Source: Bradyrhizobium septentrionale
GTDB taxonomy: Bacteria; Pseudomonadota; Alphaproteobacteria; Rhizobiales; Xanthobacteraceae
DNA length: 64,000 nucleotides
Direction of reading: 5' to 3'
Assembly: GCF_011516645.4 (NCBI RefSeq)
Contig: NZ_CP088285.1
Span: 8,512,501-8,576,500, forward strand
The translations under genes were made by a program, and so were the position numbers. Below are positions 13,849 through 57,629 of this stretch, in pieces. The notes under the pieces are model-generated. The model searched no databases and was not told where the DNA came from. It saw only the letters and a program-made list of their open reading frames with translations. Every line of letters starts with the position of its first letter. Within the stretch, counting starts at the first letter, position 1.

Positions 13849-13874
13849 GGCCCCGTTCGCATCGGGGCCTTTTT
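13849..13874 (+). terminator. intrinsic terminator with loop TTCGCAT
   Basis: GGCCCCG / CGGGGCC stem around TTCGCAT followed by five T. It follows 13534-13827. The loop differs from the recurrent TTCGCAG hairpins by one base, and this copy alone has a clear T-run, so it may show what the family derives from. Confidence 0.75.
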
Positions 13875-13902
13875 CATGCCTGCCAACCAAGGAGACCACC
13901 CG

Positions 13903-14151
13903 ATGTCCACAACGCTCAACACCGACCTGTCGCGCCGCGCCCACCAGCTCGCGGCGATCGCCGCCGAGAACGCCAACAAGTTCATCCGCCGCGAGATGCA
14001 GGCCGGTGGCCTGTCCCGTCAGCAGATCGTCGCCGAGTGCGGCGCCGGGATGAAGGCGATCGACTTCCTCGCCGACATCCGCCGCGTCCTGTCCATCCGC
14101 CCGACGGCGAGCGATCGCCGCGTGCTCAAGCTCGCCAAGTGCGATTTCTGA
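13903..14151 (+). CDS. hypothetical helical protein (82 aa)
   Basis: ATG at 13903 follows AAGGAGACCACCCG and is preferred to the upstream in-frame ATG. Helical (HQLAAIAAENANKFIRREMQ) with a possible helix-turn-helix around GLSRQQIVAECGAG. No family recognised. Confidence 0.65.
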   Translation: MSTTLNTDLSRRAHQLAAIAAENANKFIRREMQAGGLSRQQIVAECGAGMKAIDFLADIRRVLSIRPTASDRRVLKLAKCDF

Positions 14152-14161
14152 GGAGGCCGCA

Positions 14162-14356
14162 ATGACCAAGCGACGCAAGCTCACCTATCACGGCAAGCGC
14201 TTCAACCTGCGCATCAGCGACACACCCTTCGGACTCTTCGTCCACCTCGATCCGAAGAGGGCGCCGAAGCGCGGCGGCTACAAGACCAAGTCGTGGCGCT
14301 TCGCCACGTTCAAGCACGCGACGATGTTCTGCCAAGACGTCGTCCAAGACATCTGA
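14162..14356 (+). CDS. hypothetical basic protein (64 aa)
   Basis: GAGGAGGCC precedes the ATG. Rich in Lys/Arg and aromatic residues (MTKRRKLTYHGKRF, KSWRFATFKHA). Possibly nucleic-acid binding; no family recognised. Confidence 0.6.
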   Translation: MTKRRKLTYHGKRFNLRISDTPFGLFVHLDPKRAPKRGGYKTKSWRFATFKHATMFCQDVVQDI

Positions 14357-14386
14357 ACCGCAACCCCCGACACAAGGAGACCACCC

Positions 14387-14605
14387 GTGATCGACTTCTG
14401 CAACATCGACAATGCCAAGAGCTACGCCACCGAAGCGAACCTGATGAAGGCCCTCGCGACCCTGGGCCTCGACCAGATGCGACCGGTCATCGTGCGCAAC
14501 CGGGAGGGGCGCTTCACCGCGATCTTCGGCCTCCACCTCTCGGGCATGGCGTGCAGCGGCAACGTGATGGCCGCTGCCAACCACGGCTTCAAGACCATCA
14601 ACTGA
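14387..14605 (+). CDS. hypothetical protein (72 aa)
   Basis: GTG start set by AAGGAGACCACCC immediately upstream. Contains RPVIVRNREGRFTAIF and a C-terminal Gly/Ala-rich segment. No family recognised. Confidence 0.6.
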   Translation: MIDFCNIDNAKSYATEANLMKALATLGLDQMRPVIVRNREGRFTAIFGLHLSGMACSGNVMAAANHGFKTIN

Positions 14606-14616
14606 GGGCAACGAAC

Positions 14617-14790
14617 ATGAACACGAACAACCGGCGGACGCGCTTTCCCGAACTCGCCTACGCCCAGCACGCCAAGGACCTGTGGCGGATCATCGCCACC
14701 GACACCGATCAGGCGGTTGGCCCGCACTACAGGACGAAGGCCGAACTGCTCGCCGATCTCGACCGCTACGCCAAGGAATTTGGTTGCTGA
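14617..14790 (+). CDS. hypothetical protein (57 aa)
   Basis: ATG at 14617, 11 bp after the previous stop. N-terminal basic stretch (NTNNRRTRF), then helical (KAELLADLDRYAKEFGC). No family recognised. Confidence 0.55.
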   Translation: MNTNNRRTRFPELAYAQHAKDLWRIIATDTDQAVGPHYRTKAELLADLDRYAKEFGC

Positions 14791-14845
14791 AACTCACGTC
14801 CGAGCGCCGCCGATGTGCGGCGCTCCAGCGTGCGCTTCCTGCACG

Positions 14846-14862
14846 ACCGTTTCGCAGACGGT
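14846..14862 (+). repeat. TTCGCAG-loop hairpin 1
   Basis: Stem ACCGT/ACGGT around TTCGCAG, 10 nt before AAGGAGACC of the 22-aa gene at 14888. Confidence 0.8.
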
Positions 14863-14887
14863 TCCTCAAACTCAAGGAGACCATCCC

Positions 14888-14956
14888 ATGTCCTACCAAC
14901 AGAAGCTCGAACTACTCCGCAAGCTCGCCCTCCAGCAATACCGCCACGGCAAGTGA
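14888..14956 (+). CDS. microprotein (22 aa)
   Basis: ATG at 14888 has a full AAGGAGACC site and one of the conserved hairpins upstream, the same leader as much longer genes, which is the main reason to believe it. The product is one helix rich in Gln, Leu and Lys (QQKLELLRKLALQQY). Function unknown. Confidence 0.55.
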   Translation: MSYQQKLELLRKLALQQYRHGK

Positions 14957-14970
14957 GAGGAGCGACGCAC

Positions 14971-15273
14971 ATGGCTGGCACCAACACGCACTACACGATC
15001 CGCGAAGCCAAGGCGATCCTGGCCCAGCACGGCATGACGATCTCGTCCGACGAGGGCGAGTATCGCGTCGCCTTCAAGATCGAGCACCACTCGGCGAGCG
15101 CAAGCCACGCCAGCGGCTACTGGACGGTCGGTCGCAAGACCTTCACCGGCGCCGGCGCCGCGATGGACGCCCGCAACGCCGCCGAGGGATCGTCCTACTA
15201 CACCACCCAGCTGGTCGACGCGATCGGCACCGGCATCGAGATGGCGCGGCACGAAGCTGGGAGGGCCGCATGA
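14971..15273 (+). CDS. hypothetical protein (100 aa)
   Basis: GAGAGGAGC precedes the ATG at 14971. Likely alpha/beta fold (YTIREAKAILAQHGMTI, EYRVAFKI). Its stop overlaps the next ATG. No family recognised. Confidence 0.65.
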   Translation: MAGTNTHYTIREAKAILAQHGMTISSDEGEYRVAFKIEHHSASASHASGYWTVGRKTFTGAGAAMDARNAAEGSSYYTTQLVDAIGTGIEMARHEAGRAA

Positions 15274-15464
15274 CCCTCACGCAGCTGCAACGCTACGAGC
15301 TCGCCCGCCGCAAGCTGGCCGATGGCAACATCGCCTTCATGGAGATGGTCACCCACAAGACCAATCCGATGACCCGCGAGGATCTCACCGCGCTGATCAA
15401 ACTCCGGCCGGAGCGCTACTCGCGCTTCTCCGGCTGGCTCGACGTCCTTCCCTCCCGCAACTGA
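15270..15464 (+). CDS. hypothetical protein (64 aa)
   Basis: ATG overlaps the upstream stop (ATGA). Helical (QLQRYELARRKLADG) with an Arg-rich C-terminal part. No family recognised. Confidence 0.6.
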   Translation: MTLTQLQRYELARRKLADGNIAFMEMVTHKTNPMTREDLTALIKLRPERYSRFSGWLDVLPSRN

Positions 15465-15480
15465 CAAGGAGACCCCGACC

Positions 15481-15705
15481 ATGGCTACCAAGATCAAGAC
15501 CTTCCGCCTCGGCTCGTCCCCAATGGTGTCCGCGCCCGGCATGGTGCGATGGGCGATCGCCGGCGCCAAGTTTCCGCGGGATCGCAAGACCGTCGCCAAC
15601 GTCATCGCTCAGACGTGGAGCGTCCCGATGGCCGCAGCGATCAAGCTCGTCACCCAGACCGTGCCCTTCACGGTCGAGGGCGAGACCGTCGTGTTCACCG
15701 CCTGA
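15481..15705 (+). CDS. hypothetical protein (74 aa)
   Basis: AAGGAGACCCCGACC precedes the ATG. KFPRDRKTVANVIAQTW may be a helix-turn-helix-like segment. No family recognised. Confidence 0.6.
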   Translation: MATKIKTFRLGSSPMVSAPGMVRWAIAGAKFPRDRKTVANVIAQTWSVPMAAAIKLVTQTVPFTVEGETVVFTA

Positions 15706-15718
15706 CAGGGAGCCCACC

Positions 15719-15961
15719 ATGAAAGTCTACCTGACCCGCACCAAGGCCGTGACCGTCGCCGACTATCCCGCCGCCTCCAAGGCGGTGCGCGCCTTCATCG
15801 AGAAGGGCGATCTCGGCGCGGGCTGCGGCTCCTCGCTGGAGGCCTTCACCGGCGGCAACATCGTCGACGGCAAGGGCAAGATGATCGCCCACGTCTCCTA
15901 CAACGGCCGCGTCTGGCCCGGCACCGAGTGGAAGCCGGGCCTCAAGCCGCTGTTCGGCTGA
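15719..15961 (+). CDS. hypothetical protein (80 aa)
   Basis: GGGAGCCC precedes the ATG. Mixed alpha/beta; the Trp-rich C-terminus (GRVWPGTEWKPGLKPLFG) is distinctive. No family recognised. Confidence 0.6.
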   Translation: MKVYLTRTKAVTVADYPAASKAVRAFIEKGDLGAGCGSSLEAFTGGNIVDGKGKMIAHVSYNGRVWPGTEWKPGLKPLFG

Positions 15962-15990
15962 CCCTCACCTCAACCCCCGATCTTCAACCC

Positions 15991-16013
15991 GGGCCGCCTT
16001 CGCAGGGCGGCCC
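15991..16013 (+). repeat. TTCGCAG-loop hairpin 2
   Basis: Eight-base stem GGGCCGCC/GGCGGCCC, followed by TTTGC and then the AAGGAGACC of the next gene. Confidence 0.85.
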
Positions 16014-16035
16014 TTTGCACAAGGAGACCATCCCA

Positions 16036-16488
16036 ATGACGACCAAAGCCATTTCCGCCGTCCTCGCCGACACCCGCAGCCCGGCTGCGCAGAAGGCATT
16101 CATCAACGCCTTCGCCGACGCGCCGCTGATCCCGCTCGAAGAGCAGATCGCGGACCTCGAGGCCAGGTTGGACGCCATGGTGCTCAAGGCCGAGACCGGC
16201 GCGCAGTGGGCCGAGATTTGCCGCATCGAGCGCAACGAGATGATCCCGCTGCTGCGCCAGAAAGCGGTGCCGGTCGACCCGATGCGCAAGACCGCCTCGT
16301 CGATCGAGCACGGCACCAAGTTCTCCAAGTCGCAGGTCCAGTGGATCATGGACCACGACTGGGCGGTGCGCTCGCTGATGGGCGCCGTCGTCGTGATCGA
16401 CCGCTTCACCTACAACGGATCGGCCTACGCCGAGTATTTCGTCTGGGCCGGCACCTTCAACGAGCTGCGCGACTGGGCGGGGTACTGA
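16036..16488 (+). CDS. hypothetical protein (150 aa)
   Basis: ATG at 16036 after AAGGAGACCATCCCA. Predicted coiled coil at residues 35-60 (EEQIADLEARLDAMVLKAE). The remainder is mixed alpha/beta. No family recognised. Confidence 0.65.
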   Translation: MTTKAISAVLADTRSPAAQKAFINAFADAPLIPLEEQIADLEARLDAMVLKAETGAQWAEICRIERNEMIPLLRQKAVPVDPMRKTASSIEHGTKFSKSQVQWIMDHDWAVRSLMGAVVVIDRFTYNGSAYAEYFVWAGTFNELRDWAGY

Positions 16489-16491
16489 GCC

Positions 16492-16710: not shown

Positions 16711-16763
16711 GTGGTCCACCCCGGACACCTCTTTTCAACTCGCAACCCCAAGGAGACCATCCA

Positions 16764-17240: not shown

Positions 17241-17243
17241 GCG

Positions 17244-17520: not shown

Positions 17521-17522
17521 CG

Positions 17523-19305: not shown

Positions 19306-19322
19306 GCCGTTTCGCAGACGGC
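19306..19322 (+). repeat. TTCGCAG-loop hairpin 3
   Basis: Stem GCCGT/ACGGC, then AAGGAGACC 5 nt downstream. Confidence 0.8.
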
Positions 19323-19739: not shown

Positions 19740-19754
19740 CCCGTTCGCAGCGGG
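19740..19754 (+). repeat. TTCGCAG-loop hairpin 4
   Basis: Four-base stem CCCG/CGGG, weakest of the well-paired copies. AAGGAGACC follows 6 nt later. Confidence 0.65.
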
Positions 19755-22608: not shown

Positions 22609-22625
22609 CCCGTTTCGCAGACGGG
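22609..22625 (+). repeat. TTCGCAG-loop hairpin 5
   Basis: Stem CCCGT/ACGGG; a CCAGGAGACC site follows 5 nt later. Confidence 0.8.
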
Positions 22626-23228: not shown

Positions 23229-23245
23229 GGGCCTTCGCAGGGCCC
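23229..23245 (+). repeat. TTCGCAG-loop hairpin 6
   Basis: Stem GGGCC/GGCCC, about 26 nt before AAGGAGACC. Confidence 0.8.
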
Positions 23246-25600: not shown

Positions 25601-25628
25601 GCGCGACCGATTTCGCAGATCGCCGCGC
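25601..25628 (+). repeat. TTCGCAG-loop hairpin 7
   Basis: Inner stem CGAT/ATCG and outer stem GCGCG/CGCGC separated by a small internal loop. Confidence 0.8.
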
Positions 25629-26646: not shown

Positions 26647-26679
26647 CCGCGCGACGGCTTTCGCAGAGCCGCCGCGCGG
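26647..26679 (+). repeat. TTCGCAG-loop hairpin 8
   Basis: Inner stem CGGCT/AGCCG and outer stem CCGCGCG/CGCGCGG joined by one A-C mismatch, 12 pairs in all. Confidence 0.9.
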
Positions 26680-26987: not shown

Positions 26988-27010
26988 GGCCCCGCTTCGC
27001 AGGCGGGGCC
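26988..27010 (+). repeat. TTCGCAG-loop hairpin 9
   Basis: Eight-base perfect stem GGCCCCGC/GCGGGGCC. Confidence 0.9.
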
Positions 27011-28855: not shown

Positions 28856-28872
28856 GGGCTTTCGCAGAGCCC
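28856..28872 (+). repeat. TTCGCAG-loop hairpin 10
   Basis: Stem GGGCT/AGCCC, starting 5 nt after the previous stop; AAGGAGACC follows. Confidence 0.8.
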
Positions 28873-29339: not shown

Positions 29340-29354
29340 GGGCTTCGCAGGCCC
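29340..29354 (+). repeat. TTCGCAG-loop hairpin 11
   Basis: Stem GGGC/GCCC; AAGGAGACC 5 nt downstream. Confidence 0.7.
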
Positions 29355-30435: not shown

Positions 30436-30450
30436 GGGCTTCGCAGGCCC
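30436..30450 (+). repeat. TTCGCAG-loop hairpin 12
   Basis: Stem GGGC/GCCC; leader nearly identical to that of hairpin 11, including CCCATCA and AAGGAGACCAAGACTATG. Confidence 0.7.
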
Positions 30451-30471: not shown

Positions 30472-31710
30472 ATGAGTCATTTCGCAGTTCTAGTGATCTC
30501 GCCGACCGAGCTCACCAAGGAAACGATCAAGCCGATGCTGCAGCCTTGGCACGAGTTCGAGTGCACCGGCTTCGATGACCAATATGTCGTCGATGTCGAC
30601 AAGACTGAAGAGGTCCTCGCCGAGTATCGCGAGCAGACCCGCTCGATGATCCGTTCCCCTGACGGCATTCAGGTCGCGGCCCACGACGATCGGTTCTACC
30701 GCAACCCGACCGAGCAGGAGCAGCAGATCATGGGCAAAGTCCCGGGCACGGGAAGTCGCGGCGATTTGTCGTGGACGAGCAAGGACTGGGGTGACGGCCG
30801 GGGCTATCGCGGCAAGGTGCACTTCGTGCCTGACGGATATAGCAAGGTGGAAGTGCCGTGCAGCGAGGTCATGACCATCGCCGAGTTTATCGACTGGTGG
30901 CACAGCGGCAAGATCGTTCGCAGCGAGGCCGAGATCGACCGGAGCGGCGAGCACAAATACGGCTACGCGCTCATTGCCGAGAACGGCGATTTGATCCGGA
31001 TGATCGACCGCACCAACCCGAACCGGAAATGGGACTGGTGGGCGGTTGGTGGCCGCTGGTCGGGCATGCTCGCCGCTCCCGGCTACGATCCCGAGAAAGA
31101 CCCGGCCAATCAGGAGACCTGCACCCTGTGTGGCGGTTCCGGCAAGCGTACGTTTCGGGCGGAGGAGATCGTCTGCAACAAGTGCGATGGCAGGGGCACT
31201 GCGGTCAAGTGGCCGAGCAGCTGGGTCGACACCGGCAACCACGCCCAGCTCAAGGACATCCCGCTGGAGGCGATCCGCAACCACGCCGAGATCGAGGCGC
31301 TCAAGCGGTTCGACGAGGCGCAGGAGGTGATCGCCGGCCGGGGCTTCAAACGGTGGGACGAGGTCAAGGCCGACAATGGCGGCGACATCGACAAGACCCG
31401 CGAGGCCTACCGCGGCCAGCAAGTGCTCAAGGACCTCGAGGAAGCCAAGCTGGTCAGCTTCTTCGATGACGACGAGATCATCGGACTGTTCTGGATGTCA
31501 CGCGCAGATCGGGCCACCCGCGCTCGCAACAACGCGCTTCGCACCTTCGCCGTCGTCAAGGACGGTCAGTGGTACGAGCGCGGCGAGATGGGTTGGTTCG
31601 GGTGCGTCGCTGACGAGAAGGACTCCGAACAATGGTCGCGCGAGTTCGCGGCCCTGCTCGACGGCCTGCCGCCCGAAACCTGGCTCGCCGTCGTCGACTG
31701 CCACATCTGA
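30472..31710 (+). CDS. conserved phage protein with DnaJ-like Cys motifs (412 aa)
   Basis: MSHFAVLVI...WHEFECTGFDD is the start of a family seen in phages of several phyla, function unknown. Residues about 220-250 hold CTLCGGSGKR and CNKCDGRGTA, two CxxCxGxG repeats as in DnaJ zinc domains. WDWWAVGGRWSG before them is also conserved. Probably a zinc-stabilised protein. Confidence 0.7.
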   Translation: MSHFAVLVISPTELTKETIKPMLQPWHEFECTGFDDQYVVDVDKTEEVLAEYREQTRSMIRSPDGIQVAAHDDRFYRNPTEQEQQIMGKVPGTGSRGDLSWTSKDWGDGRGYRGKVHFVPDGYSKVEVPCSEVMTIAEFIDWWHSGKIVRSEAEIDRSGEHKYGYALIAENGDLIRMIDRTNPNRKWDWWAVGGRWSGMLAAPGYDPEKDPANQETCTLCGGSGKRTFRAEEIVCNKCDGRGTAVKWPSSWVDTGNHAQLKDIPLEAIRNHAEIEALKRFDEAQEVIAGRGFKRWDEVKADNGGDIDKTREAYRGQQVLKDLEEAKLVSFFDDDEIIGLFWMSRADRATRARNNALRTFAVVKDGQWYERGEMGWFGCVADEKDSEQWSREFAALLDGLPPETWLAVVDCHI

Positions 31711-31725
31711 TCTGAAACCCCAACC

Positions 31726-31748
31726 GGGGCCGCTTCGCAGGCGGCCCC
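31726..31748 (+). repeat. TTCGCAG-loop hairpin 13
   Basis: Eight-base perfect stem GGGGCCGC/GCGGCCCC. Confidence 0.9.
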
Positions 31749-31771
31749 ATCATTCCACAAGGAGACCAACT

Positions 31772-33727
31772 ATGACTGACATCACCATCAACGGCCTGAC
31801 CCGCGCCGACATCAAGGCGGGCGAGACCTACGAGTTCCGCATGGGCGGCAGCGTCCAGAGTATCGAGGTGCGCGCCGTCGGCGACGACGGCTTCATGACC
31901 CAGTTCGGCCCGATGCCGTGGAGCAACGCCGGAATGTTGACCCGGCCGACCCCGGCGACGACCATGGACACGCCGGAGATCAGGAAGATGGTCGCGGATG
32001 CGGCCGCCGATGCCGAGGCCGCGCCCCCGAAGAGCCGCAGGACTAAGGCGAAGGCCGAAGCCGAAGCCAAGGCCGATGTTGCGGCCGAGCCGCCTGCCCC
32101 GGAGCCCGCAGCGGTCCCGGCTCCCGCCAAGAAACCGCCCCTGACCCGCAGCCAAGAGATCGCGGCCGACGTGGCGGCGCTGCTCCGCGCTCGCAATCCG
32201 CTGTTGTGGATCGTCACCCGGGAGGAGGCCCGGGCCGAGCGCTACCTCGTGAGCGCCGCCGCCGCGGCTGGCTTCGTCCCGCGCATGTGGGATTGCGGTC
32301 AGGGCGTCACCGATGTCGCGGCCAAGGCCGAGAGCATCGGCTCCGCCGACATCGGCGAGACGCTCGGCGCCATCCGCGCCCGGGCCGACGCCAAGTCCGA
32401 CCGCGGCGCGTGGATCATGCGCGATCTGCCGCCGTGGCTGGCCGGGACCATTGGCATGGTGGTCTGCCGACAGGTGCGCAACCTGGCCCGCTTCCTGCCG
32501 GGCGTGGAGCGCGATGGCGCGCAGGCGCTGATCGTGCTGTCCCCGTCGGGCGATGTCCCGCCGGAGCTCGCCAACCACGCCACGGTGATCGAGTGGCCGA
32601 TGCCGGATCGCGCCGAGATCGCCAGCCTGCTGGACGACACGATCAACGGCCTGCCCGACGAGATGCGCGAGTCGGCAGCGCCCAACGGCACCCGGGAGGC
32701 GGCGATCGACTCCGCGATCGGGCTCACCGGCGAGGAAGCACAGGCCTGCTACTCGAAGTCGCTTGTGCAGCTGCGCAAGATCGACCCGACCGCCGTGTCG
32801 AGGGAGAAGAAGCGCGTCATCGCTCGCGAGAAGGTCCTCGAATGGTTCGACCCGATCCCCGGCGGCCTTGCGGCCGTCGGCGGTCTCGGCAACCTCAAGG
32901 ACTGGCTGATGCAGCGTAAGCTCGCCTACTCCCCGGCCGCGCGTGCCTACGGCCTACCGGCGCCGAAGGGCTGCTTCCTCGTCGGCATCCCGGGCTGCGG
33001 AAAGTCGCTGATCTCGAAGGCGACCGCCACCGCCTTCGATGCGCCGCTGCTCAAGCTCGACTTGGGCGCGCTCAAGGGCAAGTTCGTCGGCGAGAGCGAG
33101 GCCAACATGCGCAAGGCGCTTCGCACCATCGAGGCGATTGGCCGCTGCGTGGTCTGGATCGACGAGATCGAGAAGGCCCTGACCGGGGCCACCGCCGGCG
33201 GCTCGGACGGCGGCGTCTCGTCGGACCAGCTCGGCGCGCTGCTGCAGTGGATGCAGGAGCGCACCAGCGAGTCGTTCGTGATCGCCACCGCCAACTCGGT
33301 GGCGACCCTGCCGCCGGAGCTGCTCCGCAAGGGCCGCTTCGACGAGTTCTGGTTCGTCGACCTGCCGAACCCGAACGAGCGCGTTGAGATCCTCAACGCA
33401 GGGCTCAAGGCGCACGGCCGCAGCTTCTCGGACATCAAGGCCGAGGAGATCGCCAACGTGGTTGCCGCGACCGACGGCTTCACCGGCTCGGAGATCGCAG
33501 CCATCGTCCCGGACGCCCTGTTCGCAGCGTTCGCCGACGGCGGCCGCCAGATCACCTGTGTCGATCTGGTGAAGGCGGCGAAGGCCGTGACCCCGCTCTC
33601 GGTCACCGCGAAGGACAAGATCGCGGAGCTGCGCAACTGGGCAGCTGGCAAGGCCCGTCGCGCCACCGACGAGTGGACTGCGGAGACGGCAAAGGTTCGC
33701 TCTACCGGCCGCGCCCTCGACATCTGA
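31772..33727 (+). CDS. Ycf46-like AAA+ ATPase
   Basis: 651 aa; ATG at 31772 after AAGGAGACCAACT. Order: beta-rich N-terminus (1-60), Ala/Lys/Pro linker, a degenerate ATPase-like domain (LLRARNPLLWIVTREEARAE...), then a full AAA+ module. The module has Walker A GIPGCGKS, Walker B CVVWIDEIEK and an arginine-finger region RKGRFDE. This two-domain plan is that of Ycf46-type ATPases related to FtsH. It may remodel a protein complex; partner unknown. Confidence 0.8.
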   Translation: MTDITINGLTRADIKAGETYEFRMGGSVQSIEVRAVGDDGFMTQFGPMPWSNAGMLTRPTPATTMDTPEIRKMVADAAADAEAAPPKSRRTKAKAEAEAKADVAAEPPAPEPAAVPAPAKKPPLTRSQEIAADVAALLRARNPLLWIVTREEARAERYLVSAAAAAGFVPRMWDCGQGVTDVAAKAESIGSADIGETLGAIRARADAKSDRGAWIMRDLPPWLAGTIGMVVCRQVRNLARFLPGVERDGAQALIVLSPSGDVPPELANHATVIEWPMPDRAEIASLLDDTINGLPDEMRESAAPNGTREAAIDSAIGLTGEEAQACYSKSLVQLRKIDPTAVSREKKRVIAREKVLEWFDPIPGGLAAVGGLGNLKDWLMQRKLAYSPAARAYGLPAPKGCFLVGIPGCGKSLISKATATAFDAPLLKLDLGALKGKFVGESEANMRKALRTIEAIGRCVVWIDEIEKALTGATAGGSDGGVSSDQLGALLQWMQERTSESFVIATANSVATLPPELLRKGRFDEFWFVDLPNPNERVEILNAGLKAHGRSFSDIKAEEIANVVAATDGFTGSEIAAIVPDALFAAFADGGRQITCVDLVKAAKAVTPLSVTAKDKIAELRNWAAGKARRATDEWTAETAKVRSTGRALDI

Positions 33728-33796
33728 TCCACAAACCGCATGAGACCCGCACTGTTACGACAGTGCGGGAAGTGTCCATCCCGTGTACTATCAAAC

Positions 33797-33813
33797 CGCG
33801 GTTTCGCAGACCG
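33797..33813 (+). repeat. TTCGCAG-loop hairpin 14
   Basis: Stem GCGGT/ACCGC. A second plain hairpin (CCCGCACTG-TTACGA-CAGTGCGGG) lies about 30 nt upstream. Confidence 0.8.
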
Positions 33814-33839
33814 CATCATCCCGCAAGGAGACCCACACT

Positions 33840-34679
33840 ATGTCGATCATCAACACCACCATCCGTCCGGGCCGCATCGTCGTGCTGCGGACCACGATCA
33901 CCGGCAACGTCAACTACACCAAGTCGGTCATCGAGGCCGAGCGCGTCGAGGCGGACGGCGCCAAGCGCGCCAAATGGGAGACCGAGCGCGTCGTCATCAA
34001 CCCGGACGAATACGAGGAGGCCACCACGCTGCGCGACAAGGTCCGGCAGACCATCGCCGGCCTGTGCATCAAGACCACCTTCGGCCTGCTCTGCTCGGAG
34101 GAGAAGGTCGAGAAGCTCGAAGCCGCGTTCACCGAGGCGCGCCGGCTCGCCGACGAGTTCAACGGCCGCGCCTCCACGACCCAGATCAACGTGTTCGTGA
34201 TCGCGGGCCGGGTGGCAGCCGATGACGTCGAGGCGATGCGGGCGATCAACTCGGAGGTCCGCGAGCTGATGCAGGACATGGAGACCGGCCTGCAGAACCT
34301 CGATGCGAAGGCGGTGCGCGATGCCGCCAAGAAAGCGCGGCTGCTCGGCTCGATGCTCTCCGACGACGCATCGGAGCGGGTCAAGCAGGCCATCGAGACC
34401 GCCCGCAAGGCGGCCAACGACATGGTCAAGGCCGCTGAGACGAGCTCGGCCGAGATCGACCTGCAGGCGATCCGCAAGATCACGGAGAGCCGCACCGCGT
34501 TCCTCGACATCACCGGCGACAACGTCGAGATCGCGGCTCCCGTGCACGGCGCCCGCGCGCTCGACTTCGAGCCGACCGAGGGCCAGGGGCCCGCGTCCGC
34601 GCCCGAGGTCGACGAGGAGGTCGCGCCGATCGCTCCGGCCGCCCCGGCCGTCAAGGTGCCGCAGCTCGAGATGGACTAA
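33840..34679 (+). CDS. conserved phage protein (279 aa)
   Basis: ATG at 33840 after AAGGAGACCCACACT. The middle is helical (LEAAFTEARRLADEFNGRAS, VKQAIETARKAANDMVKAAE); the end is Ala/Pro/Glu-rich. It follows the AAA+ ATPase and may be its partner, by position only. Confidence 0.65.
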   Translation: MSIINTTIRPGRIVVLRTTITGNVNYTKSVIEAERVEADGAKRAKWETERVVINPDEYEEATTLRDKVRQTIAGLCIKTTFGLLCSEEKVEKLEAAFTEARRLADEFNGRASTTQINVFVIAGRVAADDVEAMRAINSEVRELMQDMETGLQNLDAKAVRDAAKKARLLGSMLSDDASERVKQAIETARKAANDMVKAAETSSAEIDLQAIRKITESRTAFLDITGDNVEIAAPVHGARALDFEPTEGQGPASAPEVDEEVAPIAPAAPAVKVPQLEMD

Positions 34680-34690: not shown

Positions 34691-34715
34691 CCGGCGGGCT
34701 TCGCAGGCCCGCCGG
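34691..34715 (+). repeat. TTCGCAG-loop hairpin 15
   Basis: Nine-base perfect stem CCGGCGGGC/GCCCGCCGG. Confidence 0.9.
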
Positions 34716-34751: not shown

Positions 34752-35096
34752 ATGGCTTGTGACACATGGCGTGCCAACGAGAACCAGACCCTTACCGAGC
34801 GCAAGGAAGAGATCAAGCGCGTGATCGACCTCGTCGCGCAGGAGATCGTCAAGGGCCGCGTCAAGCCCAAGGTGGGCGCGCAGGGCGCGATCACCTTCGA
34901 GGGACTGGACGCCGTCACCGACCGGCGCGGCGTCACCGACGCCTGCGTCTACCGCCGGATCATGTCGACCGGATCGGCAATGGCGAAGCAGCAGCTCGCC
35001 CGCGCCGAGCAACTGGCCGGACGCCGCGTCGATGCGAAGGCGCTCGCCGGCGGCCACCACTCTCACGATGGAGGCAAGACATGGCACAAGCATTGA
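34752..35096 (+). CDS. hypothetical protein (114 aa)
   Basis: ATG after AAGGAGACCAAC. Helical N-terminus (TERKEEIKRVIDLVAQEI), His-rich end (GGHHSHDGGKTWHKH) that could bind metal. No family recognised. Confidence 0.65.
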   Translation: MACDTWRANENQTLTERKEEIKRVIDLVAQEIVKGRVKPKVGAQGAITFEGLDAVTDRRGVTDACVYRRIMSTGSAMAKQQLARAEQLAGRRVDAKALAGGHHSHDGGKTWHKH

Positions 35097-35524: not shown

Positions 35525-35543
35525 CGCCTGTTCGCAGCAGGCG
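35525..35543 (+). repeat. TTCGCAG-loop hairpin 16
   Basis: Six-base stem CGCCTG/CAGGCG; AAGGAGACC 5 nt downstream. Confidence 0.85.
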
Positions 35544-36574: not shown

Positions 36575-36591
36575 GCCCGTTCGCAGCGGGC
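36575..36591 (+). repeat. TTCGCAG-loop hairpin 17
   Basis: Stem GCCCG/CGGGC, 5 nt after the previous stop; AAGGAGACC follows. Confidence 0.8.
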
Positions 36592-37168: not shown

Positions 37169-37195
37169 GGGGCTGGAGTTCGCAGCTCCAGCCCC
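37169..37195 (+). repeat. TTCGCAG-loop hairpin 18
   Basis: Ten-base perfect stem GGGGCTGGAG/CTCCAGCCCC. It is followed by CAAGGGAGG and CAAGGAGACC sites that have no start codon at the right distance, so a gene may have been lost from 37200-37280. Confidence 0.9.
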
Positions 37196-37586: not shown

Positions 37587-37623
37587 ATTGGGCGCGGCGA
37601 CTTCGCAGGTCGCCACGCCCAAT
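37587..37623 (+). repeat. TTCGCAG-loop hairpin 19
   Basis: Inner stem GGCGAC/GTCGCC and outer stem ATTGGGCG/CGCCCAAT with one C-A mismatch, 14 pairs. The following AAGGAGACC has no start codon at normal spacing. Confidence 0.9.
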
Positions 37624-40754: not shown

Positions 40755-41119
40755 CAGAAGTCGCTCTGCTCCGCCTCCTCGGCCTCAATCCGAGTGATCG
40801 CCCACTTGAGATAGTTGGCGAGGTCGAGCGCCTCCTCGTAGGCGTGCTGCAGCCGGCCGCGGAGCGAGAAGTTCGGCTGCTCGCCGAGCGTCTTGCCGTA
40901 CTTGGCGATGCCGAGCTGGGAGCGCTGCAGCAGGTCGGTGCGGACCGCGTCGATGACGCTGTCGCGCCGCGCCTCGACGTGACCGCACTCGTTGCGAACC
41001 AGCACGCCGTCGACGACGATGGTGAGCGGGAGATTGTAGGAGTTCTCACGCTCTTTGATGATGCGGCCGTTCTCGATGACGAGGTCGGCGCTGTTGTATA
41101 GTTGGGTATTGCCTCTCAT
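40754..41119 (-). CDS. MazG-like (d)NTP pyrophosphohydrolase
   Basis: 121 aa from ATG at 41119, set by AAGGAGACCAGA. LQRSQLGIAKYGKTL and LQHAYEEALDLANYLKWAI match phage dATP/dGTP pyrophosphohydrolase-type (all-alpha NTP-PPase) proteins; EE-xx-D would bind metal. The first 60 residues are an added region. Its job is probably to shape the dNTP pool together with ThyX. Confidence 0.65.
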   Translation of the reverse strand: MRGNTQLYNSADLVIENGRIIKERENSYNLPLTIVVDGVLVRNECGHVEARRDSVIDAVRTDLLQRSQLGIAKYGKTLGEQPNFSLRGRLQHAYEEALDLANYLKWAITRIEAEEAEQSDF

Positions 41120-41135
41120 TCTGGTCTCCTTGGGG

Positions 41136-41390
41136 TTAGACGTTGATCGGGCCGTTCGCGATCGCCCGGGCCCATCTCGGGTCGGTGTCGCGACAGCTGG
41201 GCCGCCCGCGCTTCTCGGGCCTGCGAAGCCCGAGGACGGAGGCGGAGGTGGCGGCATAGCGGGGGTGCAATCCCTCCGCCCTGCATGCTTCAGCGGAGGC
41301 CGCTGGCCCCTGCTCCATGTGGATCGCGACGAGCTCGAGCTCGCGCTTGAGCGAGACCTTGCGGCGTCGATTGTGTCCGGTCTGGACCAT
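41136..41390 (-). CDS. hypothetical protein (84 aa)
   Basis: ATG at 41390 after CAAGGAGACCGATC, with a minus-strand hairpin upstream. Basic N-terminus (TGHNRRRKVSLKREL), central region like a small helix-turn-helix (EACRAEGLHPRYAATSASVL). A second TTCGCAG hairpin sequence falls inside it (41217-41237). Confidence 0.55.
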   Translation of the reverse strand: MVQTGHNRRRKVSLKRELELVAIHMEQGPAASAEACRAEGLHPRYAATSASVLGLRRPEKRGRPSCRDTDPRWARAIANGPINV

Positions 41391-41409
41391 GATCGGTCTC
41401 CTTGTGCTG

Positions 41410-41426
41410 CCCTGCTGCGAACAGGG
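41410..41426 (-). repeat. TTCGCAG-loop hairpin 20, minus strand
   Basis: On the minus strand CCCTG-TTCGCAG-CAGGG, between the phosphoesterase stop and the AAGGAGACC of the next leftward gene. Orientation follows the gene, as on the plus strand. Confidence 0.8.
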
Positions 41427-46379: not shown

Positions 46380-46940
46380 TCACGCTTCAACACCAACGGC
46401 GGCATGACTGGTCCCCTTGGAAAATCTGATCGTTCTGTCGTGGGCGATCCGGTGGTGCTGCGAACACCACGAACAGCCTTCTCCAACTACCGGCGCGCCG
46501 CAGTAGAAATACGGGGGCGTGTCGTGAAAATTGCCGAGCGGCCAATGACATTGGTCGTTGCGCAGCTCGAGCAGCGTCGGCGAACGCGGCTCGCCGCTTT
46601 CGGCGTCGACCGCGCGCTCCGTGACGGGCACGGCGGATTTCTTGTTGACTATAATCGCAGGCTCCGGCGTGGAGCCCTTGCGTGCGGCGATGACCTTGGC
46701 GACCCTTGGCGCGGTATTGACTGCACCCGGCGTAGCCGGACTCGGCCTGCGCGCCTTGGCGACGTTGGAGGGCTTGCGCCAGAACGAAAGCCCCAGCCTG
46801 TGCACCTTGCCGATGACGGCGTTGCGCGACAGCGTGTAGCCATCCGCCTTCATCGCAGCCTCCGCCTCGCCGGCGGACATCTTCTCCACCATCACGTAGT
46901 GGCGGAGCTTCTCGATCATGGTGTCGGACCAATCACCCAC
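46380..46940 (-). CDS. gcrA: GcrA family cell-cycle regulator
   Basis: 186 aa from GTG at 46940, set by GAGGAGACCAATC. N-terminus GDWSDTMIEKLRHYV...SRNAVIGKVHRLGLSFW is the GcrA DNA-binding region; the C-terminal QCHWPLG...FYCGAPV...SWCSQHHRI fits the sigma-factor-contacting part. In Caulobacter GcrA recruits RNA polymerase to promoters containing methylated GANTC. An element copy could redirect host or element transcription. Confidence 0.85.
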   Translation of the reverse strand: MGDWSDTMIEKLRHYVMVEKMSAGEAEAAMKADGYTLSRNAVIGKVHRLGLSFWRKPSNVAKARRPSPATPGAVNTAPRVAKVIAARKGSTPEPAIIVNKKSAVPVTERAVDAESGEPRSPTLLELRNDQCHWPLGNFHDTPPYFYCGAPVVGEGCSWCSQHHRIAHDRTIRFSKGTSHAAVGVEA

Positions 46941-49393: not shown

Positions 49394-49526
49394 CGGATGC
49401 ACACCGGGAGACCAACCCACCATCCATCGTCAACAAGCCCGGTTCCGAGGGTGACTGTCAGGCCGCGCCGCACTTCGCAGGTGCACGCGGACTGACACTC
49501 GAGGGACCGGGTGGGAGCACCCAATC

Positions 49527-52005: not shown

Positions 52006-52022
52006 CGGGCTTCGCAGGCCCG
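52006..52022 (+). repeat. TTCGCAG-loop hairpin 21
   Basis: Stem CGGGC/GCCCG; here followed by GGGGAACC instead of AAGGAGACC. Confidence 0.8.
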
Positions 52023-53040: not shown

Positions 53041-53053
53041 GGCTTCGCAGGCC
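53041..53053 (+). repeat. weak TTCGCAG-loop hairpin
   Basis: Only GGC/GCC directly flanks the loop, but position and the following AAGGAGACC match the family. Confidence 0.5.
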
Positions 53054-53590: not shown

Positions 53591-53601
53591 GACTCAGCAA
53601 A

Positions 53602-53622
53602 CCCCGCTTCGCAGGCGGGGTC
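53602..53622 (+). repeat. TTCGCAG-loop hairpin 22
   Basis: Seven-base perfect stem ACCCCGC/GCGGGGT, 11 nt after the ssb stop; no AAGGAGACC follows directly and 53623-53772 has no gene. Confidence 0.85.
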
Positions 53623-54168: not shown

Positions 54169-54335
54169 TGTTTGACATGCGTGTGGAATTGGCCGCTCAA
54201 GCCATTCACAAGCTCGTCTGCGATCGGTCTGGTCGCGGCCGTGAGTGGAAGGCCATTCCGGAAAGCCTGAAGGCATCCTTTCGCGAAGAAGCTAGAGCAG
54301 CTCTTGCGGCGGCCGACACTATGGAGGTCCGATGA
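54168..54335 (+). CDS. hypothetical helical protein (55 aa)
   Basis: ATG overlaps the ninB-like stop (TGATG). Helical, with WKAIPESLKASFREEARAAL. No family recognised. Confidence 0.6.
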   Translation: MFDMRVELAAQAIHKLVCDRSGRGREWKAIPESLKASFREEARAALAAADTMEVR

Positions 54336-54640
54336 AGCCCGAGCAGCTGAAGATGTTCGACCTGCCGGATGTCGAGGATCGCGTCATCGACGTGCCGGCC
54401 GAGAAGCAGCCCGCGCCAAAGCGCGCGGGCCAGCGCAACCGGCAGCCATCGCTCGCGGTCCGCCAGTACGAGGTCAAGAGCGGCGGAGACTGCTTCCGCG
54501 TGCAGGCGGCCTCGCCGTCGGCGGCGAAGTACATCGCATTCAGGTTTGCGCGGAGCATGGGCCAGTACCTCTACGAGGGCGGCTTCATGGCGTTCGTCTC
54601 CGGCGGCCTGCAGGTCAGGGAAGAGAGGAGATCGAAGTGA
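54332..54640 (+). CDS. hypothetical protein (102 aa)
   Basis: ATG overlaps the previous stop. Basic linker (KRAGQRNRQPS), then a compact domain with Cys and aromatics (GDCFRVQAASPSAAKYIAFR). No family recognised. Confidence 0.6.
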   Translation: MKPEQLKMFDLPDVEDRVIDVPAEKQPAPKRAGQRNRQPSLAVRQYEVKSGGDCFRVQAASPSAAKYIAFRFARSMGQYLYEGGFMAFVSGGLQVREERRSK

Positions 54641-54717: not shown

Positions 54718-55931
54718 GCATCATCGCAACCGAGCGACTGCAACAGATCGAACAGCTCGACACCAACGGCCGATACGGCCGCCTCGCGCGCGAGGCGCTG
54801 GAGGCCCTGCCCGTGACTTTTCAGGGTCGCGTCGCGGAATGGATGAAGGCGTGCTTCTCCATCGACGTCTGTCGCGACGGCATCGAGCGCAATCACCGCT
54901 TCCTCGAAGAGTCGCTGGAACTCGTCCAATCGCTCGGCTGCACGGCGAGCGAGGCGCATCAGCTCGTCGACTACGTGTTCGGTCGCCCGGTCGGGGAGCC
55001 CAAGCAGGAGATGGGCGGCGTCATGGTCACGCTCGCGGCCCTCGCCTGCGCGCACGACCTTGACATGATGCCGGCGGCCGAGACCGAGCTGGTGCGCGTC
55101 TGGACCCGGATCGACCAGATCCGCGCGAAGCAGGCCACCAAGCCGAAGCACTCGCCACTGCCCCAGCATGTCGAGGCAGATGCTGGGACGGCTCAGGCGG
55201 CTCTGCAGGAAATCATCAAGTCAGCGTCCCACAAGGACGCAATCAATATCGCGATCGAAGCAAGGAGAGAGTACAAAACGTCCCCAGCCGCGCCAGTCGT
55301 CACCGTCGATATGTCCGCGGAGCTGATGGATGCGGCGCAGCGGACGAGCAAGCTGCGCGATAGCATCGTCGAAGCCTGCGACCTGCTGGCCGAACGGAAA
55401 TACGGGAGCCCTGCCCGGTCACCCGGTCACAACGCCCGACTCCTGCTGGAGCGGGCACTGGAGAACGTGCCGAAGGCGCCGGCCACACCCGGCGCAGACG
55501 CCGCGCGCACCATCTCTGAGCTTCGCGCGGGCCTGCAGGCGGCAATTCGCGCCGCCAAGCTCGCCCTGTTCGTGGTCCGTAAGCAGAATGTGATGCCCAA
55601 CGGCAGCTGGGCCAACGGCTTCGACCGCGATCTCGAAGCAGCCGATGCAGCGCTCGCAGGGACGCCACAACATCCGGATCTGCGCGTGGCCGTCGCCCGC
55701 GCCATCGTCGAGGTGACCAACCGCTGGATCAAGCCGAACTTCCCGGCTGATCACGTGCTGCCGACCTTCGACCAGCTGCGCAAGCAGGAGAAGCGGCTCA
55801 ATCTGGAGTTTGCTGACGCCGCGATCGCGACGGTGAAGAACGCCGGGGCCGAGCCAAAGCCGGAGCGCCAGTGGACCGGTCCCGGTCACCTCGAGCAGAC
55901 CGGCTACATTGATCCGGAGCCCGGCCGATGA
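54714..55931 (+). CDS. MazG-like NTP pyrophosphohydrolase with C-terminal extension
   Basis: 405 aa. Residues about 40-150 (WMKACFSIDVCRDGIERNHR, FLEESLELVQSLG, QLVDYVFGRPVGEPKQEMGG) are a phage NTP-PPase family; EE-x-x-E and the later E region bind Mg. Residues 170-405 are an extra region of unknown role, helical and partly basic. It would hydrolyse (d)NTPs or alarmones. Confidence 0.75.
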   Translation: MSIIATERLQQIEQLDTNGRYGRLAREALEALPVTFQGRVAEWMKACFSIDVCRDGIERNHRFLEESLELVQSLGCTASEAHQLVDYVFGRPVGEPKQEMGGVMVTLAALACAHDLDMMPAAETELVRVWTRIDQIRAKQATKPKHSPLPQHVEADAGTAQAALQEIIKSASHKDAINIAIEARREYKTSPAAPVVTVDMSAELMDAAQRTSKLRDSIVEACDLLAERKYGSPARSPGHNARLLLERALENVPKAPATPGADAARTISELRAGLQAAIRAAKLALFVVRKQNVMPNGSWANGFDRDLEAADAALAGTPQHPDLRVAVARAIVEVTNRWIKPNFPADHVLPTFDQLRKQEKRLNLEFADAAIATVKNAGAEPKPERQWTGPGHLEQTGYIDPEPGR

Positions 55932-56099
55932 ACCTCCGCATCCTCAAGAAGCTGTCCGCGCGCGCCGCTCTACAAGAAGCGTGCGTATCACCTGGGTCTG
56001 AAAGACAAGCCGTCGCGGCTGAAGAGCCGCGGCTTCGAGGGCGTCAAGCCGCAGCGTACCGCGTCGACACCCATCAACAAATGGAGAGGGTATGACTGA
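55928..56099 (+). pseudogene. frameshifted small basic protein
   Basis: ATG overlaps the previous stop. MNLRILKKLSAR is followed in the +1 frame by APLYKKRAYHLGLKDKPSRL to ...KWRGYD and a stop at 56097. The shift falls in the GCGCGCGCC repeat near 55960. Confidence 0.55.
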
Positions 56100-56652
56100 G
56101 ATCGAGCGTTACATCATCCGGCCCGAGGCGCACCGCGGCGAATGGGCCTTCATCTATGTCGACGAGGAGAAGAGCATGTTCATGGCCTACTCGTCGTTCG
56201 GAACCTACGCATATTGCTGGCCTCACCGGGGGCCCGAGACCTTGAAGGAGTTCCTGCTCGACCTCGAGTTCGACTACTTCATGGGAAAGACGCGTGGGCT
56301 CGAGAGCAAGCAGTTTGATTTCAACGGCACCATCGAGGGCATGAGAAAGCACGTCCGCGAAGCGCAACGCCGCAAGATGCTGAGCAAGGACAAGGCTCGC
56401 GACGCCTTGGTCGCCATCGACGACCTGAAGTGGATGGATAACCATCAGAGCGTCGACGTGTTCGTCGATCGCGTCTATGCGGACAAGGCGATCTGCGAGG
56501 CCTATCGTCACGACTTCGAGGACGTCATCAAGAACCGCCCTGACCCTCAGTGCGTTGGCTTCTGGCAGAAGATCTGGCCGGAGTTCGTCAAGGCGATCAC
56601 GCCCAAGCCGGTCGCGGCGGTGGTCGAGCAGCCGGTCGAGGTGATGGCATGA
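56092..56652 (+). CDS. hypothetical protein (186 aa)
   Basis: ATG after GGAGAGGGT. The first half (IIRPEAHRGEWAFIYVDEEK, YAYCWPHRGPETLKEFL) looks like a phage protein family of unknown function; the C-terminal helices are charged. Stop overlaps the next start. Confidence 0.65.
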   Translation: MTEIERYIIRPEAHRGEWAFIYVDEEKSMFMAYSSFGTYAYCWPHRGPETLKEFLLDLEFDYFMGKTRGLESKQFDFNGTIEGMRKHVREAQRRKMLSKDKARDALVAIDDLKWMDNHQSVDVFVDRVYADKAICEAYRHDFEDVIKNRPDPQCVGFWQKIWPEFVKAITPKPVAAVVEQPVEVMA

Positions 56653-57149
56653 CAACGCGCCGCGATCTGTTCAAGGTCGGCGCGGCTGCGGCCGCCGCCG
56701 TCGCACTGCCCTCCTCGGGCCCCGTCGTTGCGGGCGAGCTGGTCGAGCCCGCGGTCGCTGTAGCCCCGGCGACGCCCTACGCGACCTATCCGTGGCGCTG
56801 GTGGATCAGCCTCGACGGCGAGTCCTTCATCGAAGAGTTCGATACCGAGGCCGAGGCCATCAAGGCGGCCAAGGGTTACGGAGAGAAGGCCATTGTGGCT
56901 GAGTGCCAGCAGCAGGACTTCAGCCTTCATGTCTACGGCAGCGACGTCATCGAGATGCTCTACCAGAACAACGAGGAGGACATCGGCGATGGCGAGTTCT
57001 TCGACTGCACCAAGGAGCAGTCGGACGAGCTCGGCCAGGTCGTGACCGCCGCGATCGAGGCGTGGGCCGCGAAGCACAAGCTCAATCTGACGGCATGGAC
57101 GTTCGGTCAGACCCGCAACCGCACCGAGATCCCAGAGGAGGTCGCCTGA
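56649..57149 (+). CDS. protein with Tat-like signal (166 aa)
   Basis: ATG at 56649. MTTRRDLFKVGAAAAAAVAL is a twin-arginine-type signal peptide (RRDLFK plus hydrophobic Ala run, cleavage near VVAG). The mature part has WRWWISLDGESFIEEF and is acidic. Function unknown; if the signal works it is exported folded. Confidence 0.6.
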   Translation: MTTRRDLFKVGAAAAAAVALPSSGPVVAGELVEPAVAVAPATPYATYPWRWWISLDGESFIEEFDTEAEAIKAAKGYGEKAIVAECQQQDFSLHVYGSDVIEMLYQNNEEDIGDGEFFDCTKEQSDELGQVVTAAIEAWAAKHKLNLTAWTFGQTRNRTEIPEEVA

Positions 57150-57595
57150 TGGACCTGCCGCAGATCCCCGACGACGACGCCGACTTCACGCCCGATCTGG
57201 CGCGCGAGATCATCGCCAAGTACCAGAAGATCATCACCGACCTGACCGACCCCACTCTGAGGAGCATGCGGCTCGATGATGGCGGCTTCAACATGGAGCT
57301 GGGCGGCGAGGTCGTGAAGCGGATGGCGATCATGATGACGACGTGGTTCCGCGAGAGCGGCGCCAAGAACTACGTCGAGATCGCCATCAACGCCATCGAC
57401 CCGCCCTTCGAGAAGTTCCTGTTCTATGTGCAGAAGCGCGGCGACGGTGCGTTGACGCCGGGTGAGGCTTTGAGCGAGGCGAAGGCCGAGATCGCCCGCT
57501 ACGCCAGCCAGGTCGCGGACCTCGAAGAGGAGTGCGATCGCCGCTACCAAGAAACCGAGAAGCTGCGTGAGCAGCTTGCAGTAAGTGTAAAATAG
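57149..57595 (+). CDS. coiled-coil hypothetical protein (148 aa)
   Basis: TGATG overlap. C-terminal coiled coil (KAEIARYASQVADLEEECDR). No family recognised. Last gene before hairpin 23. Confidence 0.6.
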   Translation: MDLPQIPDDDADFTPDLAREIIAKYQKIITDLTDPTLRSMRLDDGGFNMELGGEVVKRMAIMMTTWFRESGAKNYVEIAINAIDPPFEKFLFYVQKRGDGALTPGEALSEAKAEIARYASQVADLEEECDRRYQETEKLREQLAVSVK

Positions 57596-57604
57596 ACCCC
57601 GGCC

Positions 57605-57629
57605 GGGGCCCGCTTCGCAGGCGGGCCCC
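57605..57629 (+). repeat. TTCGCAG-loop hairpin 23
   Basis: Nine-base perfect stem GGGGCCCGC/GCGGGCCCC, 9 nt after the previous stop; AAGGAGACC follows 7 nt later. Confidence 0.9.

Follow-up and report, generated by a model that had tools for sequence, protein, structure and literature searches.

A bipartite start-associated element, a hairpin with a nearly fixed TTCGCAG loop followed by a fixed ribosome-site motif, in one lineage of large Bradyrhizobium prophages

The early and replication genes of a large prophage of Bradyrhizobium septentrionale carry a bipartite start-associated element, made up of a hairpin and, at the ribosome site just downstream, the motif AAGGAGACC, which is a Shine-Dalgarno core joined to letters that do not pair with 16S rRNA. 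The hairpin is mostly of 4 to 8 bp, with stem letters constrained only by pairing and a loop that is nearly always TTCGCAG. The element heads many translational units of early and replication genes and is specific to one lineage of large Bradyrhizobium prophages. The window described here, the whole 64,000-nt stretch of DNA that was analysed (G000:C2:8512501-8576500), holds the right part of one of these prophages. With about even confidence, we read the element as a multi-gene translational operator whose loop would be read in trans by one factor, with an RNA-binding protein of the phage as the most likely candidate.

The window has 39 copies of TTCGCAG, as compared with 13.4 (standard deviation 3.7) in shuffled sequences, none of 100 shuffles reaching 39. 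Twenty-six of the 39 form the 7-nt loop of a stem with 4 or more Watson-Crick pairs; the runner-up 7-mer in such a position has four copies, the reverse complement of TTCGCAG being set aside. As a host control, 400 kb was drawn from 20 places in this genome; it contains 41 copies, none with a Watson-Crick stem of this length. A first-pass annotation, made from the sequence alone, had described at least 23 hairpins with an invariant loop and perfectly paired stems, absent from the leftward block of the window. The number and the absence stand, with 26 hairpins and no TTCGCAG at positions 1-11209, but the first copy (13849-13869) has the loop TTCGCAT, and a mismatch or small internal loop is found at 25612, 26660 and 53044; the longer stem at 23234 includes a G-U pair. 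A covariance model built from 24 sites gave 37 matches up to E 10 in the 10.4-Mb genome, in a search in which 150 of 8669 candidates were scored. The 25 best matches (E up to 0.021) all lie within the prophage, while ten of the 12 weaker ones are outside it and two inside, and thus the hairpins are not frequent at random positions of the host chromosome. At the Rfam gathering cut-off only three tRNAs match in the window, so the hairpin fits no Rfam family, in keeping with the earlier statement that no known element fits.

Position and orientation tie the hairpins to gene starts. Using gene coordinates from a rough gene caller made for this analysis, 24 of the 26 window hairpins are intergenic with a same-strand gene downstream and none is antisense; the description of the copies as intergenic fails only at 41221 and 46458 (both minus strand), which sit within coding regions in the sense direction. 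Two divergent prophages, in the genomes G053 and G082, have the same hairpins, and in the three early regions together there are 82 with stems of at least 4 bp (26 in the window, 30 in G053 and 26 in G082). Seventy-seven of them are intergenic before a same-strand gene, five are in genes in the sense direction and none is antisense, so that orientation does track the genes. Stems of 3-6 pairs (n=52) lie at a median of 6 nt from the ribosome site (quartiles 5-8.25), which agrees with the first-pass placement of the copies just upstream of such a site; AAGGAGACC typically comes 5-8 nt downstream of these short stems and is followed by the start codon. A hairpin is borne by 22 of 35, 29 of 44 and 24 of 42 same-strand genes with a gap of more than 30 nt in the three regions (75 of 121), and by 0 of 31, 1 of 33 and 0 of 33 genes at most 10 nt behind the previous gene (1 of 97). 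This dependence on the gap indicates that hairpins stand at the head of translational units and are all but absent where coupling between genes is possible.

In all three phages the gene for a GcrA-family cell-cycle regulator (PF07750; window 46380-46940, minus strand) has an internal TTCGCAG hairpin in its 3' part, with stems of 6, 3 and 3/6 bp, and in G082 and G053 this hairpin is followed by the AAGGAGA site of the next gene.

As far as sequence comparison goes, support for a genuine RNA hairpin is strong. It was assessed on a second set of 82 sites from the three early regions, defined by TTCGCAG with AGGAGA and a start codon within 75 nt and with no stem required; 34 of the 116 TTCGCAG copies in these regions fall outside this set. 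Inner pairs 1-4 are Watson-Crick at 77, 81, 78 and 77 of the 82 sites, and G-U at 1, 0, 2 and 0. When five pairs are counted, 92.7% of cells are paired (45.7% when shuffled) and 190 cells are double-changed (78 when shuffled), with a covariation score of 0.998 as against 0.224 in shuffles and 0.08-0.22 when the partners are slid by 1-3 columns. All 5 of 5 pairs show a double change, but shuffles reach this figure too, so that this count is uninformative. The first-pass claim of a selected RNA structure is well supported by these values. Hairpins also recur in orthologous genes, both, one or neither member of a pair having one in 8, 8 and 28 cases for G000 and G053 (Fisher p 9e-4), 9, 4 and 28 for G000 and G082 (p 6e-6) and 6, 7 and 28 for G053 and G082 (p 2e-3), and the orthologous hairpins mostly differ in stem letters. 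In a close relative of the window's prophage (G648), the loop is unchanged at 16 of 17 alignable sites, and the stem changes comprise a compensatory double change at 26996, two other inner-stem changes that improve pairing and one that breaks a pair; ten of 27 sites were not alignable (four without a match, six not spanned), and the changes classed are those within stems.

The hairpins might be intrinsic terminators or attenuators that set the output of each cassette, a role proposed in the first-pass annotation, and long stems with T-rich tails do occur at a few copies where the rightward block begins (window 13856, G053 57522 and G082 62299) and at one late-region copy (G000:C2:8505707). However, only seven of 75 sites with stems of at least 4 pairs have at least 4 T in the next 8 nt, and 40 of the 82 stems in the second set are of 4-5 pairs, which makes this role highly unlikely. 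Alternatively, the element might act as DNA, whether as a cruciform, as an N4-like hairpin promoter or as a site of recombination between cassettes. The three prophages have partly rearranged gene orders, so that the copies could mark exchange points, and G-U pairs are rare, but the complete lack of antisense copies among 82, the placement before a ribosome site and the unshared stems, hence little homology for exchange, leave this the least probable of the explanations considered. Promoters for an N4-type giant virion RNA polymerase were rejected, the largest open reading frame (ORF) listed in the prophage encoding 987 amino acids (aa).

Because the second set was picked by its loop and its ribosome site, neither the fixed loop nor the AGGAGA letters are findings of that set. 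A loop-independent test starts from the 107 sites with AAGGAGACC and a start codon and then seeks a stem upstream. Within 60 nt upstream, 77 of the 107 have a perfect stem of at least 5 bp with a loop of 4-8 nt, and the best stem carries TTCGCAG in 49 cases, TCGCAG in six, TTCGCAT in one and another loop in 21, giving family loops at 56 of 77. Over 75 nt upstream, 70 of the 107 sites show a heptaloop on a stem of 4 bp or longer, 10 have TTCGCAG with a weaker stem and 20 have none; the further 7 have the hexaloop TCGCAG in the same geometry, a rarer form. Loops one letter off, with stems of at least 5 bp, number one in the window, none in G053 and one in G082.

A structure acting only in cis, which would insulate or present the ribosome site (standby or anti-coupling) with its loop unread, would be consistent with several properties of these sites: the inner pairs are likely formed (predicted mean 0.85), the ribosome site is about half accessible (mean probability unpaired 0.53), the flanks are rich in C/A and poor in G, and one orthologous site has a UUCG tetraloop. 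Structure alone, however, needs neither AAGGAGACC itself nor a loop shared by 56 of the 77 best hairpins before it under closing pairs of three types, C-G, G-C or U-A, and we consider such a role rather improbable. Assignment of the family to the UUCG tetraloop class was rejected, as the loop is of 7 nt with any of these three closing pairs and the lone tetraloop is at one G053 site.

AAGGAGACC on its own had been taken as ordinary in the first-pass annotation, which was wrong: genome-wide, 25 of the 41 copies of AAGGAGACC-N(1-7)-ATG are in the prophage. Seventy-six of the 82 hairpins with stems of at least 4 bp precede GGAG and a start codon, and the letters flanking GGAG at these 76 are AA before (73, 74) and ACC after (73, 73, 74). 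Where the ribosome site has the form AAGGAG-NNN-start, the three letters are ACC at 29 of 35, 38 of 46 and 38 of 47 sites in the three early regions, at 1 of 8 in the late region and at 0 of 33 in the host (AAGGAGNNN plus start). The 16S tail, which we take to be GGAUCACCUCCUUU, would be unable to extend its pairing to ACC. In the 82 sites picked by loop, for which the letter count at the ribosome site forced the first A, 81 have AAGGAGACC and one has CAGGAGACC; the letters after GGAG are A, C, C, A, with the fourth-place A at 70 of 82. Seven hairpin-less stretches with a related primase have 0-1 AAGGAGACC each, and both parts are found together in G000, G053, G082, G648 and a metagenomic phage fragment (G647, described below). 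As AAGGAGACC is specific to these phages, the unit is bipartite. At three AAGGAGACC sites in G053 (52120, 56391 and 57122 in element coordinates), the motif follows another repeated hairpin, GATGCACTTCCGCATC.

The letters of this second part also provide the main rival to a translational operator, namely that the hairpin and AAGGAGACC mark early mRNAs for processing or decay by a site-specific endonuclease, or that the hairpin protects the new 5' end of each unit, output then being set by mRNA stability. Most of the stems here are too short for RNase III, which counts against it. According to the relevant section of PMC3014915, T4 RegB cleaves GGAG at early-gene ribosome sites, its consensus being GG*AGRAYARAA, and it is because three of the four letters after GGAG agree with this consensus that RegB-like processing has to be taken seriously; the copies are also concentrated among early genes. 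On the other hand, the later letters match the consensus poorly (A at 37 of 82, then C at 52 of 82), RegB sites require no fixed-loop hairpin, and the Pfam families listed for 77 early proteins include none like RegB or RelE. Processing seems to us unlikely, although it is the strongest of the competing explanations.

A fixed motif at the ribosome site is also difficult to reconcile with antitermination, in which the hairpins would be sites, similar to nut or boxB, that load a factor onto RNA polymerase. In principle the comparison is apt, as boxB too is an RNA hairpin recognised by its loop and found in early operons of temperate phages. The present element, however, recurs many times in an operon, its copies being tied to gene starts, and its short distance to the ribosome site, with a second fixed motif there, is not what would be expected of such sites, so that antitermination appears improbable.

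Returning to the translational operator, free stems with a fixed loop suggest that the loop is recognised by sequence and that the stem only presents it, while gene orientation, short distance to the ribosome site and the fixed extension of that site suggest action at translation initiation. A sequence-specific factor would read the loop on the mRNA in trans, and this factor together with the fixed AAGGAGACC would control access of the 30S subunit to the start, such that some 20-35 early units might be switched or tuned together at translation initiation, by repression or activation. The simplest reading assigns all of these units to a single recogniser, and among the roles first proposed, a trans-acting factor at translation stays the best.

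Several observations weigh against it. With respect to spacing, stems of at least 7 pairs (n=24) are farther from the ribosome site (median 13.5 nt), as if some merely insulate, and for 63 hairpins the quartiles of the hairpin-to-site distance (6-14.5) are scarcely tighter than those of the distance from stop codon to hairpin (9.5-21.5). There are 46 gaps of more than 30 nt, out of 121, without such a hairpin. With respect to structure, seven of the 82 sites picked by loop fail to form 4 pairs, G-U pairs (3 of 328 inner-pair cells) are scarcer than expected for a freely drifting RNA stem, and the G648 change at 37602 breaks the stem. At the site near 34700 the loop is TTTGCAG in G648 and is replaced by a perfect C(UUCG)G tetraloop stem in G053 (36243), so the loop must be dispensable at that site. 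Finally, when 77 of the 84 proteins called in the early region were compared with Pfam, no known RNA-binding regulator was found among the 25 of 26 families listed, and G647 shares almost no proteins with the other hairpin phages, which suggests that the reader could be host-encoded or lie outside the G647 fragment. Twenty-eight proteins are common to the three hairpin phages G000, G053 and G082. One of these, a small basic protein of 102 aa (54332-54640, plus strand), was considered as the reader and is a poor candidate, as its start, QLKMFDLP, resembles what we take to be a sliding-clamp binding motif.

We also considered that the loop might be a sensor or bait for a tRNA, through seven-base loop-loop pairing with tRNA-Arg(ACG) beside the ribosome site. 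UUCGCAG is complementary at 7 of 7 positions to the anticodon loop of the host tRNA-Arg(ACG), CTACGAA, if position 34 is inosine, as we presume. This was noticed after the fact; it is the sole 7/7 case among 46 distinct loops from 53 tRNA predictions in the fetched loci (tRNA matches genome-wide number 60), and a random 7-mer has a probability of 0.0015 of such full complementarity. TTCGCAG is also identical at 6 of 7 positions to the tRNA-Ala(CGC) loop TTCGCAA, again seen after the fact. Neither resemblance counts as evidence of pairing, and we think a tRNA role very improbable. If it were true, the early regulon would respond to the condition or abundance of a single host tRNA, in the manner of a T-box but by loop-loop contact and at translation, or else the mRNAs might shield tRNA-Arg(ACG) from anticodon nucleases.

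The prophage has its integrase gene beside a tRNA-Leu gene, and its length is put at about 119 kb because 17 bases of the tRNA end recur at 8452129. Left of the window are genes for terminase, portal, sheath and tape-measure proteins (10 ORFs scanned), which make it a myovirus, while the right part has many small genes together with a primase-helicase, a RecE-like exonuclease, SSB, NinB and the GcrA-family protein. In the late region, a protein of 987 aa (L064:3951-6914, minus strand) matches NUDIX, RNA-ligase and head maturation protease profiles in succession, an unusual fusion. The family is not bounded by the coordinates first assigned to it, as it extends to the left end of the prophage (G000:C2:8452248); the late part has this one left-end site and one terminator-like stem. 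At the left end (G000:C2:8452246-8452290), some 100 bp in from the att repeat, a hairpin that includes a G-U pair stands with AAGGAGACC at the start of a gene for a putative HD-domain (SpoT-like) protein, identified by eye, and the G053 counterpart is at 3127582. The late-region stem (G000:C2:8505707, minus strand) is a lone TTCGCAG hairpin whose stem of about 12 bp includes one G-U pair; with its T-rich tail it resembles an intrinsic terminator. Near-identical terminator-like stems, GCCCGG-TTCGCAG-CCGGGC, are seen in three other Bradyrhizobium genomes (L021, L022 and L023).

Related prophages are present as IMG/VR records of 105-136 kb, with 2908764845 and 2922401287 as near relatives of the window's element and two further records whose matches equal those of G053 and G082. 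The primases of the divergent prophages in G053 and G082 (the latter genome in the same GTDB genus as the host G000) are 67% identical to that of the window and other proteins about 32-90%, and TTCGCAG is the dominant 7-nt loop there too, with 25 and 21 copies on stems of at least 5 bp. The 28.6-kb fragment G647 (3300037054), whose genes are nearly unrelated, has six hairpins, all before AAGGAGAC. The composite pattern TTCGCAGN{7,24}AAGGAGACC has 16 copies in G000, 26 in G053 and 24 in G082, and only these three of 265 Bradyrhizobium genomes have more than three copies; of the other 262, 26 have 1-3 and the rest none. Among 397 genomes of the order, 21 besides G000 match, with one copy each. 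Another 39 matches in other viral contigs (33 distinct contexts) were rejected as chance, 38 of them lacking a stem of at least 4 bp. The seven hairpin-less stretches mentioned above, which surround a more distant primase, lack any TTCGCAG loop on a stem of 4 bp or more and show no comparable family, their enriched loops of at least 6 nt reaching at most five copies. No such hairpin family was found in the parts examined of the gene-sharing phages Firecracker (which shows known 17-bp repeats), MP1412, BcepMigl and Mae-JY30, or of AnnaSerena and Quhwah. Cluster O mycobacteriophages have relatives of the AAA-ATPase gene (46% identity) and of a 114-aa gene (53%), and early genes (window 30472-34679 and 34752-35096) also have relatives in Pseudomonas, Bordetella, Burkholderia and Caulobacter phages.

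The listings returned by our literature searches showed no description of an element combining this hairpin with AAGGAGACC. Lambda-type boxB, a small pentaloop hairpin read by a phage protein at one site per operon with a boxA partner, is similar in being a small hairpin, whereas here there is a 7-nt TTCGCAG loop, 26-30 copies per phage and a fixed ribosome-site motif. The closest parallels are the start-associated sequences (SAS) and extended SAS (ESAS) of cluster K and EF phages, which, in the sections cited of PMC3203893 and PMC7302621, lie mostly in one orientation at starts of non-structural genes, are rare in the host, place a fixed motif with letters not pairing with 16S over the Shine-Dalgarno sequence, and often have an inverted repeat just upstream. 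The SAS is GGGATAGGAGCCC or GGGAAAGGACCCC, and the motif here is AAGGAGACC. In cluster K the inverted-repeat arms are conserved and were judged by the authors not to support RNA pairing (PMC3203893, in the section cited), while the present element has a fixed loop on arms that vary but remain paired; in 33 kb of AnnaSerena (cluster EF) we found no consistent pairing around five sense GTAGAG copies. The 17-bp repeats of cluster O (Corndog) likewise have dozens of copies, many in short intergenic gaps, but their 7-bp arms are invariant, the 3-bp centre varies and there is no clear orientation, the reverse of the present pattern (PMC4351075, relevant section). Since conserved arms mark the repeats of both cluster K and cluster O, and those of cluster K were judged not to be RNA, we did not file the element as SAS/ESAS; it is of the same kind in position and a new variant in nature.

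Two T4 systems, as treated in sections of PMC3014915, are instructive by analogy. The gp43 operator of T4 and RB69, in which the top of the hairpin including the loop is conserved between the two phages, resembles the element in anatomy only, with a recognised-loop hairpin upstream of a ribosome site and sequence over that site, but it serves one gene autogenously, while here there are some 20-35 copies per phage with another loop. In the RegA regulon one factor acts at many mRNA ribosome sites, but these are unstructured and variable, while here hairpin and ribosome-site motif are fixed; both RegA and gp43 act as repressors. The nearest working model would thus be a gp43-type operator deployed as a RegA-like regulon. 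Start-associated repeats of unknown function have already been described in actinobacteriophages; the element here is bipartite, with strong comparative support for an RNA hairpin. Should the reader of the loop prove to be a phage protein, one short tag would let a natural RNA-binding module control some 20-35 genes, and it might also offer a compact tool for translational control in rhizobia. The nearest case known to us, T4 RegA, reads no hairpin.

Table 1. Hairpins and associated features in window coordinates. The loop is TTCGCAG unless stated otherwise.
Feature	Position	Strand	Remarks
Hairpin, 7 bp	13849..13869	+	variant loop TTCGCAT, T-run after
Hairpin, 5 bp	14846..14862	+	
Hairpin, 8 bp	15991..16013	+	
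Hairpin, 5 bp	19306..19322	+	
Hairpin, 4 bp	19740..19754	+	
Hairpin, 5 bp	22609..22625	+	upstream of CAGGAGACC; orthologous G053 gene also has a hairpin, different stem letters
Hairpin, 5 Watson-Crick bp	23229..23245	+	7 counting a G-U
Hairpin, 4 bp	25608..25622	+	outer helix beyond internal loop
Hairpin, 5 bp	26655..26671	+	outer helix beyond one mismatch
Hairpin, 8 bp	26988..27010	+	compensatory C-G to G-C at 26996 in G648
Hairpin, 5 bp	28856..28872	+	
Hairpin, 4 bp	29340..29354	+	
Hairpin, 4 bp	30436..30450	+	
Hairpin, 8 bp	31726..31748	+	ahead of AAA ATPase gene 31772-33727
Hairpin, 5 bp	33798..33814	+	
Hairpin, 9 bp	34691..34715	+	loop varies among relatives
Hairpin, 6 bp	35525..35543	+	
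Hairpin, 5 bp	36575..36591	+	
Hairpin, 10 bp	37169..37195	+	G053 and G082 counterparts also 10 bp, different stem letters
Hairpin, 6 bp	37596..37614	+	
Hairpin, 7 bp	41214..41234	-	within ORF 41136-41390
Hairpin, 5 bp	41410..41426	-	ahead of minus-strand gene
Hairpin, 6 bp	46452..46470	-	within 3' part of GcrA-family gene
Hairpin, 4 bp	49470..49484	+	ahead of RecE-like exonuclease gene
Hairpin, 5 bp	52006..52022	+	
Hairpin, 3 inner bp	53041..53053	+	outer pairs beyond mismatch; ahead of SSB gene
Hairpin, 7 bp	53601..53621	+	AAGGAGA absent within about 80 nt
Hairpin, 9 bp	57605..57629	+	ahead of small ORF 57630-57839 and integrase gene
AAGGAGACC, second fixed part	14874..14882	+	
More AAGGAGACC, ATG 1-7 nt downstream	13522, 13889, 15466, 16021, 16750, 18024, 19327, 19761, 23271, 25654, 26698, 27024, 28880, 29360, 30457, 31759, 33825, 34740, 35549, 36598, 57638	+	
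AAGGAGACC copies, ATG 1-7 nt downstream	within 41117-41131 and 41388-41403	-	
Tyrosine integrase of prophage	57839..58963	+	
17 bp at tRNA-Leu 3' end	59040..59056		recurs at G000:C2:8452129; presumed att core

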